13,034 nt of DNA from Thermodesulfobium sp. 4217-1. Lineage in GTDB: Bacteria; Thermodesulfobiota; Thermodesulfobiia; Thermodesulfobiales; Thermodesulfobiaceae. The position numbers and the translations under genes were made by a program. The notes beneath the pieces were generated by a model. The model worked only from the letters and a program-made list of their open reading frames with translations. It did not search any database and was not told the origin of the DNA. Below, piece by piece: positions 7,178 through 12,867 of the stretch. How positions within the stretch are numbered: position 1 is the first letter of the stretch; every line of letters begins with the position of its first letter. Location: assembly GCF_039822205.1 (NCBI RefSeq), contig NZ_JBAGBW010000035.1, positions 1 through 13,034 on the forward strand, in the 5' to 3' direction.

Positions 7178-7186
7178 TGCTAAAAT
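7178..7186 (+). promoter_or_regulatory. candidate extended -10 promoter, upstream of first small peptide gene
   Basis: TGCTAAAAT matches the extended -10 pattern (TGnTAnnnT) with no good -35 at 17 bases. The same 12 bases, TGCTAAAATAAA, lie at a similar distance before the second copy although most of the sequence between differs, which suggests function. Here it also sits in a weak imperfect hairpin (CCG.TTTAT...ATAAACGG, 7168-7192) ahead of T-rich DNA that could instead act as a poor terminator for uvrC. Confidence 0.35.
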
Positions 7187-7229: not shown

Positions 7230-7392
7230 TTTGATTATTTTTTGTGCAGGGAGGTTTTTAGTGTTAAAACTTATGAGATCGAGCAAGTTTATATTTTTTG
7301 TAACCATAATACTTGTTGCTGTATTTGTAGCAACATCGGTAATATTATTTTTACCTGTAATTCCAAGATAGGATGAATCGATATATAGCATT
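7230..7392 (+). repeat. long direct repeat, copy 1
   Basis: This block is about 95% identical to 8684-8847, at a period of 1454 bases. It spans a T-rich segment, the GGGAGG ribosome binding site (7249-7254), the whole small peptide gene and the first six codons of the following M23 gene. Differences are a one-T length change, one base before the GTG, three synonymous changes and the stop region. Identity drops abruptly at both edges. Confidence 0.9.
7261..7371 (+). CDS. 36-residue single-pass membrane peptide, copy 1 (novel small protein)
   Basis: GTG 7261 lies six bases after GGGAGG, an excellent ribosome binding site. The 36-residue product starts MLKLMRSSKF, then has one hydrophobic helix of about 20-24 residues rich in Ile, Val, Phe, Ala and Leu, and ends PVIPR. 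The basic N-terminus suggests N-in, C-out topology. The identical peptide is encoded at 8716-8826, with only three third-position synonymous differences, so the amino-acid sequence is under selection or has been recently homogenised. The TAG stop is one base before the ATG of the M23-like gene, implying translational coupling and a role with that secreted protein at the membrane. I do not recognise a family. A 7-bp stem (TGTTGCT/AGCAACA, 7314-7335) falls inside the coding region. Confidence 0.75.
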   Translation: MLKLMRSSKFIFFVTIILVAVFVATSVILFLPVIPR

Positions 7393-8464
7393 TTCCCTTC
7401 TATTTTCTGTCTTTCTTTTGACGGCTATACTACCTTATGCTATAGGACAATCAAGAGATAGTACGTACCCAGAAAATAGTGAGTTAGAAAGGCTAAAAAG
7501 TCAAGTCGATCAAAAAGAGGATGCCTTTAACCGTTTGAAACTGCACGAAACTGGAGACACAGGTCAGCTTAGTCTGATCAATGCGAATTTGGATCTAAAT
7601 AAGGCTGAGATAAAGTATGCTGATTATAAGATAAATTTAATAGAAAAAAATATTTCTGACACTACTTCACAGATAGAGTATCAGAAAAACTTGATTCAAC
7701 AAAAGGAACAAGAGGTAGGCAAGAGACTGAGATCTATATATATGATGAAAGAGCTCCCATTTTTAAACATCATTGTCTCGATGAACAACAATATTAACGA
7801 TTGGTTTGAAAGCGTTATCTTGTTTCAGAGAATTGAAAGCCAGGATAGGGATGTCCTTGATCAATATTCTTTGGCTGAAACGAAATTAAACGATTTGTTA
7901 CAGTCTCAGGATAAAGAGAAGAATAAAGTGCTTGGTCTAAAACAGGAGCTTTTTCAGAAAGAGAAGGGGATTATCGAGCAAAGAAATGAAAAAATGGCTT
8001 TGCTCTCAAACGAGACTAACAATGAGGTCTCTTATGCCCAGGGCACTCAAAATCTTAGCTCAAGGTCTCGTGAAAGCTCAGGAGGCTTTATTTGGCCTGT
8101 AGTAGGGCCTATTACTTCAGGATATGGCTGGAGGATTCATCCGATATTCAAAGTTCCAGAATTTCACACTGGAATTGATATAGGCGTGCCTTATGGCACT
8201 CCAATATTGGCGGCTAAAAGCGGAGTGGTTACGTATTCAGGCTGGGGAACTGGGTATGGAAACCTGGTGATTTTAGACAATGGCTCTGGAATAGAAACAA
8301 GATATTCTCATGCGAGCAGGCTTGTAGCCTATGTAGGCGAAAGGGTTAGACAAGGGCAGGTAATTGCTTATATAGGCAGTACGGGTTGGTCTACTGGCCC
8401 CCATTTGTTTTTTGAAATAAGAATTAATGGTAAACCAGTTAATCCGCTGAACTATCTGCCTTAG
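7373..8464 (+). CDS. EnvC/PcsB-like coiled-coil protein with degenerate M23 (LytM) domain
   Basis: This 363-residue protein begins with a signal sequence or membrane anchor (MNRYIAFSLLF...ILPYAIG, possible cleavage after AIG). A long charged coiled coil follows (about 30-215), then a C-terminal LytM/M23 domain (about 235-363). In active M23 enzymes zinc is held by the His and Asp of HxxxD and by the second His of HxH. Here H265 and D269 (HTGID) and the general catalytic H313 (YSHAS) and H344 are present, but the HxH motif reads H344-L-F346, so the third zinc ligand is lost. The protein is probably not a hydrolase; by analogy with EnvC and NlpD, whose degenerate LytM domains activate amidases, it may be a regulator. 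ATG 7373 sits one base after the small peptide stop with no independent ribosome binding site beyond the coupled context. It is a paralogue of the gene at 8828. Confidence 0.9.
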   Translation: MNRYIAFSLLFSVFLLTAILPYAIGQSRDSTYPENSELERLKSQVDQKEDAFNRLKLHETGDTGQLSLINANLDLNKAEIKYADYKINLIEKNISDTTSQIEYQKNLIQQKEQEVGKRLRSIYMMKELPFLNIIVSMNNNINDWFESVILFQRIESQDRDVLDQYSLAETKLNDLLQSQDKEKNKVLGLKQELFQKEKGIIEQRNEKMALLSNETNNEVSYAQGTQNLSSRSRESSGGFIWPVVGPITSGYGWRIHPIFKVPEFHTGIDIGVPYGTPILAAKSGVVTYSGWGTGYGNLVILDNGSGIETRYSHASRLVAYVGERVRQGQVIAYIGSTGWSTGPHLFFEIRINGKPVNPLNYLP

Positions 8465-8559
8465 ATATAGCAAAACTTTCTGTAAATCAAGTTTATCATC
8501 TTGGTCAGAGCGAATCGTTTACTGAAAACATGCATGAAATAACCAACAATGAGAAGTAA
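8443..8559 (+). pseudogene. start-less open frame, possible gene remnant
   Basis: A frame open from a stop just upstream (8440) to TAA 8557-8559 runs out of the end of the first M23 gene into the intergenic region. It encodes a protein-like tail (LDIAKLSVNQVYHLGQ...), but no usable start codon with a ribosome binding site precedes it. It may be a leftover of a gene displaced when the neighbouring unit was duplicated, or chance. The rest of the gap to 8630 shows nothing recognisable. Confidence 0.15.
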
Positions 8560-8637
8560 AAGTATAAATAAATAGTCTTCTTTGGTGACGCAGCATAGTC
8601 TCTTTTATCTATTTTTAGAATGAGATCAATTTGACTG

Positions 8638-8646
8638 TGCTAAAAT
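8638..8646 (+). promoter_or_regulatory. candidate extended -10 promoter, upstream of second small peptide gene
   Basis: TGCTAAAAT followed by AAA repeats the 12-base element seen before the first unit (7178). It lies about 78 bases before the GTG start, compared with 83 in copy 1. A TTGACT at 8631-8636 is too close to serve as its -35. The sequence between this element and the conserved ribosome-binding block is not conserved, so retention of this short element is the main argument. Confidence 0.35.
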
Positions 8647-8683
8647 AAAATGGTTAGAGTTTTTTGAGATTTATCTTAATATA

Positions 8684-8847
8684 TTTGATTATTTTTTTGT
8701 GCAGGGAGGTTTTTCGTGTTAAAACTTATGAGATCGAGTAAGTTTATATTTTTTGTAACTATAATACTTGTTGCTGTATTTGTAGCAACATCGGTAATAT
8801 TATTTTTACCTGTAATTCCAAGGTGAAATGAATCGATATATAGCATT
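8684..8847 (+). repeat. long direct repeat, copy 2
   Basis: This is the partner of 7230-7392. The block covers the T-rich leader, GGGAGG (8704-8709), the second small peptide gene and the first 20 bases of the second M23 gene. Homologous recombination between the copies would delete one complete peptide-plus-M23 unit of about 1.45 kb and leave an intact hybrid unit. Confidence 0.9.
8716..8826 (+). CDS. 36-residue single-pass membrane peptide, copy 2
   Basis: The amino-acid sequence is identical to the peptide at 7261-7371. The codons differ only at AGC/AGT (Ser), ACC/ACT (Thr) and AGA/AGG (last Arg), and the stop is TGA in place of TAG. GTG 8716 is six bases after GGGAGG, and the stop is again followed by exactly one base before the ATG of the next gene. 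Conserved start, stop position and coupling distance with changed stop identity argue that this is a real translated gene. Predicted topology is one membrane helix with a short basic cytoplasmic N-terminus. Function unknown; a membrane partner or translation-coupling leader for the adjacent M23 protein are the two main options. Confidence 0.78.
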   Translation: MLKLMRSSKFIFFVTIILVAVFVATSVILFLPVIPR

Positions 8848-9961
8848 CTCTTTTCTACTTTCTTTTTTTCTTCTAACAGCCATATTGCCTTATGCTATCG
8901 GAAAATCCAACGAACAGATTGAACAAAAAAGAAGCGAGTTAGATAGCATAAGGGCTCAAATTGATGAAAAAAGATCGATTCTAAATCAGCTAAAACAACA
9001 AGAAAACGGTATTACAGGCCAAATAGATCAGATCGATGCAAATTTAGATTTAAAAGAAACTGAATTAAAGGATGTAGATTACAGATTAAATCTCTTACAA
9101 CAGAAAATTCTTGATACCAATGCTCAGATTGACTATCAAAGAAAAGTTACTCTGGAAAAGGAAGCTCAGGTTGCAAACAGACTGAGATCTATATATATGA
9201 TGAAGGAACTGCCCTTTTTCGATATTGTATTGTCTATGAACAACAACGTGAACGATTGGTTTGAAACCCTTTTTATCTTTGAAAGAATAGCTACTCAGGA
9301 CAAGGACGTTTTAAATCAATATTCCATCTCTATGAGAAATCTAAACGAGCTTTTGAAGAGCCAGGGAGAAGAACAATCAAAAGCAATTGAACTTAAAAAA
9401 GATCTCGAGCTCAAAAAACAGGAAATTATTTCCCAAAGAAATGACAGACAGGCTATATTGAAAAATATAATGAGCAATAAGGCTTCCTATGAGGCAGCAG
9501 AAGCAGAATTACAGGCAAAGTCTCAAGAGATAGAGGCCTTTTTAAGAGGATTCGACTCGAGTCCTCGTACAGGATCAGGCAAGTTTATATGGCCTGCGTC
9601 GGGGCCTATTACTTCGCCATTCGGTCCAAGATATGATCCCTACCTACACGTTCACAGCTTCCACACTGGAATTGATATAGGTGCAGAATATGGTTCTCCT
9701 ATACTTGCTGCCGATAGTGGCCGAGTTGTGTATTCTGGTTGGTATGACGGTTATGGGAAAGCTGTTATCATAGATCACGGAGGAGGAGTGTCTACTCTGT
9801 ATGCTCATGCGAGCAGGCTGGTCGCATACGTGGGCGAAAGCGTAAGACAAGGGCAGGTCATTGCTTATGTGGGAGCTACTGGGTACGCAACTGGGCCACA
9901 CCTTCATTTCGAAATAAGAATTAACGGCAAACCTGTTAACCCATTGAATTATTTACCATAA
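8828..9961 (+). CDS. EnvC/PcsB-like coiled-coil murein hydrolase with intact M23 (LytM) domain
   Basis: This 377-residue secreted protein has a signal sequence or anchor (MNRYIAFSFLL...ILPYAIG), a long coiled coil (about 30-235) and a C-terminal M23 metallopeptidase domain (about 250-377). The zinc site is complete: H279 and D283 (HTGID) plus H360 of H358-L-H360 (GPHLHFE), with catalytic H327 (YAHAS). M23 peptidases of this form cut peptide cross-links in peptidoglycan; coiled-coil versions such as PcsB and EnvC relatives are controlled at the division site by FtsEX, though no ftsEX genes are in the window. It is a paralogue of the gene at 7373, about 14 residues longer between coiled coil and catalytic domain. 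It is coupled to the small peptide gene by a one-base gap. Confidence 0.93.
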   Translation: MNRYIAFSFLLSFFLLTAILPYAIGKSNEQIEQKRSELDSIRAQIDEKRSILNQLKQQENGITGQIDQIDANLDLKETELKDVDYRLNLLQQKILDTNAQIDYQRKVTLEKEAQVANRLRSIYMMKELPFFDIVLSMNNNVNDWFETLFIFERIATQDKDVLNQYSISMRNLNELLKSQGEEQSKAIELKKDLELKKQEIISQRNDRQAILKNIMSNKASYEAAEAELQAKSQEIEAFLRGFDSSPRTGSGKFIWPASGPITSPFGPRYDPYLHVHSFHTGIDIGAEYGSPILAADSGRVVYSGWYDGYGKAVIIDHGGGVSTLYAHASRLVAYVGESVRQGQVIAYVGATGYATGPHLHFEIRINGKPVNPLNYLP

Positions 9962-10028: not shown

Positions 10029-11276
10029 TTGCAAAAATTTTATTTTCCCGAATTCACAATTAAAGAACTTAAAAATTCTCTTAAATTAGTTCTAATACCA
10101 ATTTTTGAGTCCAACAGTATAGTCACTTCTCTATACTTAAAGGTTGGCTCTGCCCTTGAGAATCAGAATACAAATGGATTATCGCATTTTCTTGAGCATC
10201 TCTTGTTCAAAGGGACACAGAGGAGAAATGCTTATGATATATTTTGTGAAATTGAGAGCGTTGGTGGAGAGATAAATGCCGCCACCTCTACCGAGTATAC
10301 GGTTTTTTATAACTATCTCCCCTATGACTCATTAGAGCTCTCTCTTGATATGATCTCAGACATTGTATTTCATTCTACCTTCCCAGTTGATGAGGTAAAC
10401 AAGGAGCGATTGGTAGTGTTAGAAGAAATGAAGAGATCTTATGATAGGATACCAAGCTGGAACTTTAATAACTTTTTGAAAAAATCTTTTCCAGAAAGCA
10501 CTTTGGGTTTGCCAATAATTGGCAGAGAAGAAGTAATTGCTAATATTGAATATGATAAGATCATCGAGTTTTATAAAGAGCGATATCTGCCAAGCAATTC
10601 GATTTTGGTCATTGCTGGCAGGTTTGACAATGATGAGGCTATTAGGCTTGCGGAAAAGTACTTTGAGAATATCCCTGACGGGAAAAATATTGCTTTTGAT
10701 TATTCTGTAGACAGCTTTCCCGCGAAAGATTTTTATGTCGAGAAAAGAAAAGATATTAAACAAGCGAGCTTGATTTATGGTTTCAGGACAAATGGCTATG
10801 AAGAATGTGAGAGAGACGTGTTCGATGTAATAGATGCTTATTTGGGCTCTGGTGGGAGTTCGATTTTGTTTCAGGAGATAAGGGAAAAAAGAGGCCTTGC
10901 TTATGATGTCTCTACATTTAACTATGTGTTTAAGAATGCATCTTTGTTTGGTGTGATCTCGGGTCTCAATCAAAAATATTTAGACGAAGCTATTGATGTC
11001 ATTAGAAGTGAGATTGTAAAACTAAAGGAAAATGGCATAAAAAAACCAGAGCTTGACAGATTGAAGATGCTGTTGAGGGGTCGATATCTGCTCGATTTTG
11101 AAACGAATTTCAAGATTTCAAGTTTGATAGGAAAGCATATATTATTTGATGAAATTGATTACCTGATCTCTTATTTAGATAGGCTGGAAGATATTTCTCC
11201 TGAACAGATACTTGAAGTTGTAAACAAATCTCTTGATTTTGACAGAGAAATTATCTGCCTGATAAAAAACGAATAA
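10029..11276 (+). CDS. M16 family zinc metallopeptidase (insulinase/processing-peptidase type)
   Basis: This 415-residue protein has the inverted zinc motif HxxEH (H53-F-L-E56-H57) and the downstream ligand Glu in VVLEEMKRS (E133, about 75 residues on). The NAATSTEYTVFY strand and the second-domain signature FQEIREKRGLAYDVSTF are also present. Length and domain order fit a single-chain active M16B peptidase, as in the bacterial relatives of mitochondrial processing peptidase and of B. subtilis MlpA. No signal peptide is seen, so it is probably cytoplasmic, degrading or processing peptides. TTG 10029 is chosen because GGAGGTG (10018-10024) lies about five bases upstream. It follows the second M23 gene by 67 T-rich bases without a clear terminator, so it may be cotranscribed. 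Its stop abuts the stop of miaB on the other strand. Confidence 0.92.
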   Translation: MQKFYFPEFTIKELKNSLKLVLIPIFESNSIVTSLYLKVGSALENQNTNGLSHFLEHLLFKGTQRRNAYDIFCEIESVGGEINAATSTEYTVFYNYLPYDSLELSLDMISDIVFHSTFPVDEVNKERLVVLEEMKRSYDRIPSWNFNNFLKKSFPESTLGLPIIGREEVIANIEYDKIIEFYKERYLPSNSILVIAGRFDNDEAIRLAEKYFENIPDGKNIAFDYSVDSFPAKDFYVEKRKDIKQASLIYGFRTNGYEECERDVFDVIDAYLGSGGSSILFQEIREKRGLAYDVSTFNYVFKNASLFGVISGLNQKYLDEAIDVIRSEIVKLKENGIKKPELDRLKMLLRGRYLLDFETNFKISSLIGKHILFDEIDYLISYLDRLEDISPEQILEVVNKSLDFDREIICLIKNE

Positions 11277-12623
11277 TTAAGACTCTTCTCCAATCATATA
11301 GTACGAAAGGACTTTGGTGATATAAACCTTTGACAAATGTCCTTGATTAAGCTGATTTTTTGGCTTGAATATGACTATCTGATGTCCCTTTGTTCTTGAT
11401 GAGACGAAACCTTTCTTTTTTTTGTCCTCTCCTTTTATAAGGACATCTACCTGCCTATTTAAATATTGCTGCCTGAAATTAATAGAGTTCTCCTCTATTT
11501 TCTTTATCAATATATTTGTCCTCTCTGATTTTTCTTGATATGTCATTTTGTCCTCAAACTTTGAGGCGGGGGTAAATGGTCTCTTAGAATATATCGCAGT
11601 ATTTACACTGTCGTATTTAAACTCTTCTACAGCCTCTATCGTGAGTTTGAAATCTTCATCTGTTTCGCCTGGGAACCCTATGATAAAATCTGAAGTTAAA
11701 ACTGCATCTGGAATTATTTTTCTTATCAGATTTATAGAGCTTCTATATTGATCGACGCTATATTTTCTATTCATCAATTTTAGAATCCGATCGGAGCCTG
11801 ACTGCATAGGGATACTAAAATAATTGCACAGGTTATCGTATGAGGCTACTGTTTCCAATAGCTCTTCTGTAATCATAGACGGATAGCTTGTTATACACTT
11901 AAACCATAAATTAGGGAATTCTTTTGCGCTCAATTCCAAAAGCTCTTTCAAAGAAGAGCCAATGTCCTTTCCGTAAGAATCGCAGTTTTGTCCTAAATAT
12001 ACGATTTCTTTAAAGCCCTGGTCGCTTCTGTGAGATACCTCTTTTAATATACTGTTAAGAGTTCTGCTTTTTTCTCTTCCCCTCCCATAAGGAACAGCAC
12101 AATAAGTACAAAACTGATCGCATCCAGAAGATATTGGCAGATAGGCGCTTGGAAAGTCGAAGTTACCCTCTGGAATGGGGATGCAATCTGGGTTCTCTAT
12201 TGATTCTTTTAAATTAATATAATTTGACTTTTCTATAATTTTATTAACAATTATCTCTATTTCTTCTAATGATGCTGGGCTAAATAGGACATCAATTTTC
12301 GGGAATTTCTCTAATATTTTTTCTCCCCATATTTTGGCCTGGCATCCACCAAGAGCAAAACACTTTAGATCTTTTTTTCTTTTTAATTTTAAGTAATTTC
12401 CAATTCTTGATAGCGCTTTATTTTCAGCGTTTTCTCTAACGGCACAAGTTAAGAGTACAATTATCTGAGCATTTTCTGGATTGGAGGGAGTGAGCCCGTG
12501 CTTTAAAAAGAGAGAGGCGAAAACCTCTCCCTCGTATTTGTTCATCTGGCACCCTAATACCTCAATAAAAAAGGTTTTGGGTTTTTCGAGTAAGTTAAGC
12601 TTGTGGTCTTCTTGGCTCAACAA
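11277..12623 (-). CDS. miaB: tRNA-2-methylthio-N6-dimethylallyladenosine synthase MiaB
   Basis: MiaB is a radical-SAM methylthiotransferase that adds a methylthio group to i6A37 of tRNAs reading UNN codons. The 448 residues show an N-terminal cluster-binding domain with C25 (LGCQMN), C60 (LLTCAVRENAENK) and C94 (GGCQAK), then the radical-SAM CxxxCxxC at C168/C172/C175 (GCDQFCTYCAVPYGRGRE). LGQNCDSYG, MQSGSDRILKLMNRKYS and a C-terminal TRAM domain (about 380-446) follow. REKSR and LGQN favour MiaB over the paralogues RimO and MtaB. The only plausible starts are TTG 12623 or TTG 12620, both inside the end of spoVS (29- or 26-base overlap), with no strong ribosome binding site, so coupled translation is likely. 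spoVS followed by miaB also occurs in the Firmicutes rny-ymdB-spoVS-miaB region. Confidence 0.93.
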   Translation of the reverse strand: MLSQEDHKLNLLEKPKTFFIEVLGCQMNKYEGEVFASLFLKHGLTPSNPENAQIIVLLTCAVRENAENKALSRIGNYLKLKRKKDLKCFALGGCQAKIWGEKILEKFPKIDVLFSPASLEEIEIIVNKIIEKSNYINLKESIENPDCIPIPEGNFDFPSAYLPISSGCDQFCTYCAVPYGRGREKSRTLNSILKEVSHRSDQGFKEIVYLGQNCDSYGKDIGSSLKELLELSAKEFPNLWFKCITSYPSMITEELLETVASYDNLCNYFSIPMQSGSDRILKLMNRKYSVDQYRSSINLIRKIIPDAVLTSDFIIGFPGETDEDFKLTIEAVEEFKYDSVNTAIYSKRPFTPASKFEDKMTYQEKSERTNILIKKIEENSINFRQQYLNRQVDVLIKGEDKKKKGFVSSRTKGHQIVIFKPKNQLNQGHLSKVYITKVLSYYMIGEES

Positions 12624-12867
12624 TTAATTTTACAGCTGTTTTAGCTTCACCCTGTATTTCAACATCGGCAAAAGCAGGTATGCATATAAGATCTATTGCA
12701 CTGGGGGCAACATAGCCTCTCGCTATTGCGATTGCTTTTACTGCCTGATTCACAGCTCCTGCGCCTATCGCTTGTAGTTCTGCTCTACCCTTTTCTCTTA
12801 TTGTGTTTGCAAGGGCACCTGCTACGGCATTTGGATTTGATTTAGCACTGACTTTTAGTTCTGACAT
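12595..12867 (-). CDS. spoVS: stage V sporulation protein S (SpoVS), Alba-like
   Basis: This 90-residue protein matches SpoVS almost end to end (LKVSAKSNPNAVAGALA, ELQAIGAGAVNQAVKAIAIA, IDLICIPAFADV, TAVKLIVEPR). SpoVS is a small Alba-like, probably nucleic-acid-binding protein needed for late sporulation in Bacillus and also widespread in non-sporulating bacteria, where it is thought to be regulatory. ATG 12867 has a perfect AGGAGGT (12880-12874) six bases upstream, the best initiation site in the window, which suggests high expression. It overlaps the start of miaB. The upstream region has a promoter-like element and three inverted repeats. Presence of this gene does not by itself show that the organism sporulates. 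Confidence 0.95.
   Translation of the reverse strand: MSELKVSAKSNPNAVAGALANTIREKGRAELQAIGAGAVNQAVKAIAIARGYVAPSAIDLICIPAFADVEIQGEAKTAVKLIVEPRRPQA

Follow-up and report, generated by a model that had tools for sequence, protein, structure and literature searches.

A single-helix membrane peptide encoded directly ahead of EnvC-type genes as a candidate partner of EnvC-type proteins

The stretch of DNA analysed here, 13,034 nucleotides from contig NZ_JBAGBW010000035.1 of Thermodesulfobium sp. 4217-1 and hereafter called the window, encodes twice over a peptide of 36 residues directly upstream of a gene for an M23 protein. We propose that this peptide is a small membrane protein of bitopic form, that its translation is probably coupled to that of the EnvC-type protein encoded behind it, and that it would serve as the membrane partner of that protein; the probability of this reading, which is drawn from sequence, is put at about 0.5. 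Cell-wall hydrolases need restraint, and for EnvC-type proteins the membrane regulator known so far is FtsEX. If the proposal is correct, a tiny membrane protein present in two distant lineages would amount to a new layer of control for EnvC-type proteins. The peptide has probably been overlooked because of its small size, which is below what most gene finders accept, and no such peptide is described in the titles and abstracts that literature searches returned.

The two 36-residue frames

The two GTG-started frames encode the same peptide, the translations of 7261-7371 and 8716-8826 both being VLKLMRSSKFIFFVTIILVAVFVATSVILFLPVIPR. This had been claimed in a first-pass annotation of the window and was confirmed by re-reading the sequence, as were the three codon differences between the copies (all synonymous and, on re-reading, all in third positions), the GGGAGG sites, the single base between the stop of each peptide frame and the ATG of the M23 gene, and the stop codons TAG and TGA (Table 1). 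The single membrane helix proposed at that time agrees with an AlphaFold model, in which residues 4-33 are predicted to form one helix. The N-terminus of the peptide is basic and, since by the positive-inside rule the basic end of a membrane helix stays inside, the predicted topology is N-in/C-out. Searches with the peptide gave no match in Pfam at E up to 1 and only sub-threshold matches in NCBIfam. A possible extended -10 element precedes each copy, although a promoter scan singled out neither; the counterpart of the second element in G001, the one genome with a single peptide copy, reads TGATAAAAT in the alignment.

Table 1. Features of the two peptide-M23 units (window coordinates unless a locus is named)
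Feature	Position	Strand	Remarks
Possible extended -10 element, copy 1	7178..7186	+	TGCTAAAAT; inferred, conserved in alignment
Approximate homogenised tract, copy 1 side	7238..7392	+	identity peak against 8693-8847
Ribosome-binding site, peptide copy 1	7249..7254	+	GGGAGG, 6 nt 5' of GTG; direct sequence
Peptide copy 1	7261..7371	+	36 aa, GTG start, TAG stop
M23 copy A	7373..8464	+	EnvC-type: signal peptide, coiled coil, LytM; HLF replaces HLH; Pfam PF01551
Possible extended -10 element, copy 2	8638..8646	+	TGCTAAAAT; inferred, conserved in alignment
Approximate homogenised tract, copy 2 side	8693..8847	+	identity peak against 7238-7392
Ribosome-binding site, peptide copy 2	8704..8709	+	GGGAGG, 6 nt 5' of GTG; direct sequence
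Peptide copy 2	8716..8826	+	same 36 residues as copy 1; GTG start, TGA stop
M23 copy B	8828..9961	+	EnvC-type; HxxxD and HLH motifs intact; Pfam PF01551
Homogenised 5' module pair	L041 2030-2250 and 3482-3702

The neighbouring M23 proteins are of the EnvC type

A coiled-coil LytM protein had been noted beside each copy, a description that profile and fold searches refine to EnvC-type. The signal peptides were judged by eye, and in the predicted structure two long helical stretches (2-125 and 141-243) are followed by strands. A joint profile of the M23 family matches EnvC over its full length (E 3.6e-52), and the top matches of a fold search with the model of copy B were EnvC of the FtsE/FtsX/EnvC complex; the queries that retrieved EnvC relatives were the joint profile and copy B. 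The LytM part of copy B superposes on that of EnvC at 1.9 A, and the overall TM-scores near 0.4 probably reflect a different pose of the long coiled coil. The NCBIfam equivalog cut-off for E. coli EnvC (270 bits) was missed by copy B (94.3 bits) as well as by copy A (68.2 bits). Judged from profile and fold, both M23 proteins are of the EnvC type, though not E. coli EnvC itself.

Copy A reads GPHLFFE in place of GPHLHFE, with HLF at the site of the HLH of active enzymes, and the conserved zinc-site histidine is lost in G000, G002 and G003. In the motif alignment HLF is found in all three genomes that hold copy A, whereas copy B retains HLH. On account of this replacement copy A is probably catalytically dead, a probable pseudo-enzyme whose companion, copy B, is intact. 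Directly 3' of copy B (10029-11276) lies a gene for an M16-type peptidase resembling YfmF/YfmH, with scores below the curated cut-offs, and a 90-aa frame on the minus strand (12595-12867) looks SpoVS-like by eye.

Occurrence and selection within the genus

The phylum was sampled with four genomes (G000-G003), all belonging to one genus. The 36-aa frame is present in each of them, in two copies in G000, G002 and G003 and in one copy in G001. All seven copies are intact, start with GTG, are preceded by AGGAGG or GGGAGG and keep the one-base gap to the ATG of the M23 gene; conversely, every EnvC-type M23 gene in the four genomes has the peptide frame on its 5' side. Pairs of copies from different species are separated by 16-25 substitutions, yet by just 3-5 residue changes, against 10.6-15.2 expected if these substitutions fell at random (P at most 0.0008, 5,000 simulations). 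Nei-Gojobori estimates between species give dN of 0.07-0.09 and dS from 0.46 to saturation. The C-terminus, LFLPV(I/F)PR, which adjoins the M23 start, is conserved in the genus. By this pattern of substitution the 36-aa frame is a coding sequence under strong purifying selection. The earlier view that it is a real small gene is therefore supported by seven intact copies in four genomes and by selection between species; among these relatives the peptide always precedes an M23 gene, and none of the seven copies is frameshifted or broken by a stop. A tblastn search of a plasmid collection with the peptide returned no matches, and a broad search with a profile of the genus peptide gave no convincing match beyond the genus, the best E there being 5.8e-4 compared with about 1e-22 for members of the genus.

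It is these substitutions across species, and not the sameness of the two copies, that identify the frame as a real gene. Near-identity within a genome spans the ribosome-binding site, the peptide and the M23 signal peptide, whereas the M23 proteins are just 56-58 percent identical. The two copies of G003 match over 221 bp without a mismatch but differ from their counterparts in other species, so that the sameness of the peptide copies is due to gene conversion of the 5' module while the M23 bodies diverge. The homogenised tract is patchy in G000 and G002. Copies homogenised by conversion lend the gene no independent support, and the main argument of the first-pass annotation, which took identical copies as evidence of selection, is weak since conversion explains the identity. 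Copy A is absent from G001, and loss is the simpler reading because copy B of G001 and that of G003 form the closest cross-species pair (90 percent).

Position relative to ftsEX

In a survey of diverse genomes FtsX was encoded just 5' of such M23 genes in 54 of 66 cases, and in a second set at 49 of 65 M23 loci. In all four genomes of this genus ftsX lies elsewhere, apart from the M23 genes; ftsE-ftsX of G001 (L126, 1889-3473), unlike that of most bacteria surveyed, has no adjoining M23 gene. Many other surveyed M23 genes without ftsX before them have no such peptide. Other small hydrophobic frames before the surveyed M23 genes were rejected by eye, as most had no convincing ribosome-binding site or resembled internal starts of the upstream gene.

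A second lineage with a comparable peptide

Two loci of the first survey, one from Gastranaerophilales and one from a relative, have another short hydrophobic frame, unlike that of the genus, ahead of their M23 gene. A search of Gastranaerophilales found this peptide in most genomes of the order, and a profile search of the phylum revealed a large family, with matches at E below 1e-10 in many of 292 genomes. The Gastranaerophilales peptide (loci L129-L189) is a single helix of 33-36 aa that begins MEFFRKxQKxII; residues M1, E2, F3, R5 and W22 are invariant, the N-terminus is conserved, the C-terminus is variable and dN/dS is about 0.12. A long frame follows within 61 nt at all 61 loci examined, the gap ranging from 2 to 61 nt and mostly being 26 nt or less. 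M23 motifs were found at 60/61 of these loci and FtsX at none (0/61), FtsX being encoded at other places in 60/60 genomes. A ribosome-binding motif precedes the peptide at 60/61 loci and the long frame at 21/61, counting these two frames alone.

Common to both groups is thus a single-helix peptide of 33-36 aa directly 5' of an EnvC-type M23 gene that lies away from ftsX. The two peptide families fail to match (hhalign probability 0.7 percent, at a length too short to exclude distant homology), and the Gastranaerophilales arrangement is therefore best regarded as an analogue, possibly convergent, rather than a homologue. One MEFFR member run against NCBIfam gave no matches.

Proposed role and alternative explanations

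We suggest that the peptide would insert in the membrane as one helix, N-in/C-out as predicted, and that translational coupling would ensure that it is made together with the secreted EnvC-type LytM protein. At the inner membrane it would then hold or gate this protein, possibly together with FtsEX, in those lineages whose envC-like gene lies apart from the ftsEX operon. Coupling is indicated in this genus by the tight spacing and by a strong ribosome-binding site solely before the peptide, that of the M23 gene being weak. Residue-level conservation in both groups and the variable gap in the second indicate that the product itself matters. Among the options of partner, regulator or leader raised in the first-pass annotation, the data favour a sequence-conserved protein, probably one that is coupled in translation as well.

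A wider and rather unlikely speculation is that in at least two phyla EnvC-type genes away from ftsEX have independently acquired a coupled single-helix peptide for anchoring or gating, as a second membrane input beside FtsX. Several points speak against a partner role. Two lineages whose peptides do not match could resemble each other by chance; both groups still encode FtsX and need no replacement for it; the surveyed M23 genes that have neither ftsX nor a peptide before them are numerous; and the fixed one-base gap also fits a cis-acting leader.

Such a leader, whose translation would deliver ribosomes, perhaps membrane-located ones, to the M23 start while its product is functionless, is a doubtful but possible alternative. 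It would account for the constant spacing and the lone strong ribosome-binding site in the genus, and for the short gaps and the skew of ribosome-binding motifs towards the peptide in Gastranaerophilales, but not readily for low dN/dS in both groups or for order-wide conservation with specific invariant residues over so wide a range of gaps. An arrest peptide that senses the state of secretion or of the membrane, stalls near its C-terminus and regulates M23 translation is improbable: the conserved C-terminus beside the M23 start in the genus would suit it, whereas in Gastranaerophilales it is the N-terminus that is conserved, and an Rfam search of the window returned no elements.

The usual position of EnvC-type M23 genes directly behind ftsX raises the question of whether the peptide derives, by decay, from the last transmembrane helix of an earlier ftsX copy at that place. 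This origin is very improbable and was rejected on predicted topology, which is the reverse of that of the last FtsX helix, and on constraint; the peptide has its own start and its own ribosome-binding site, and by eye bears no likeness to the C-terminus of the genus's own FtsX. A non-functional frame, open by chance or through recent duplication, is scarcely credible. The shortness of the frame and the homogenisation of its two copies would be compatible with it, but the cross-species data refute it, in that substitutions are biased to third positions, residue changes are far fewer than placed at random and every copy is intact.

Comparison with known systems

The closest parallel to the proposed partnership is the FtsEX-EnvC module of E. 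coli and V. cholerae (PMC7668044; PDB 6tpi, 8tzl), whose EnvC is matched by the M23 neighbours in sequence and fold as well as in the layout of coiled coil and LytM domain. EnvC is without catalytic residues (PMC7668044), and copy A resembles it in having a degenerate zinc site, whereas copy B has kept its active-site motifs. Unlike those of the module, the genes described here lie apart from ftsEX, occur as two copies in three of the four genomes and are accompanied by a 36-aa membrane peptide. This arrangement, a small single-helix peptide before an EnvC-type gene, together with its analogue in Gastranaerophilales, is suggestive of a small partner or switch of EnvC-type proteins that has been overlooked.

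Membrane proteins that serve an FtsEX-controlled cell-wall hydrolase, the type of role proposed here, are exemplified by SweC and SweD of B. subtilis, which act as membrane co-factors of FtsEX-CwlO (PMC6705773). Both possess soluble cytoplasmic domains (PMC6705773), whereas the 36-aa peptide is a bare helix, and the likeness drawn here is one of proposed role, with no homology claimed. Other tiny regulatory single-helix membrane peptides include KdpF (30 aa), which is co-transcribed with the complex it presumably serves (PMC3618439), and MgrB (47 aa; PMC8404706). Their partners differ from the one proposed here, and no sequence similarity is claimed.
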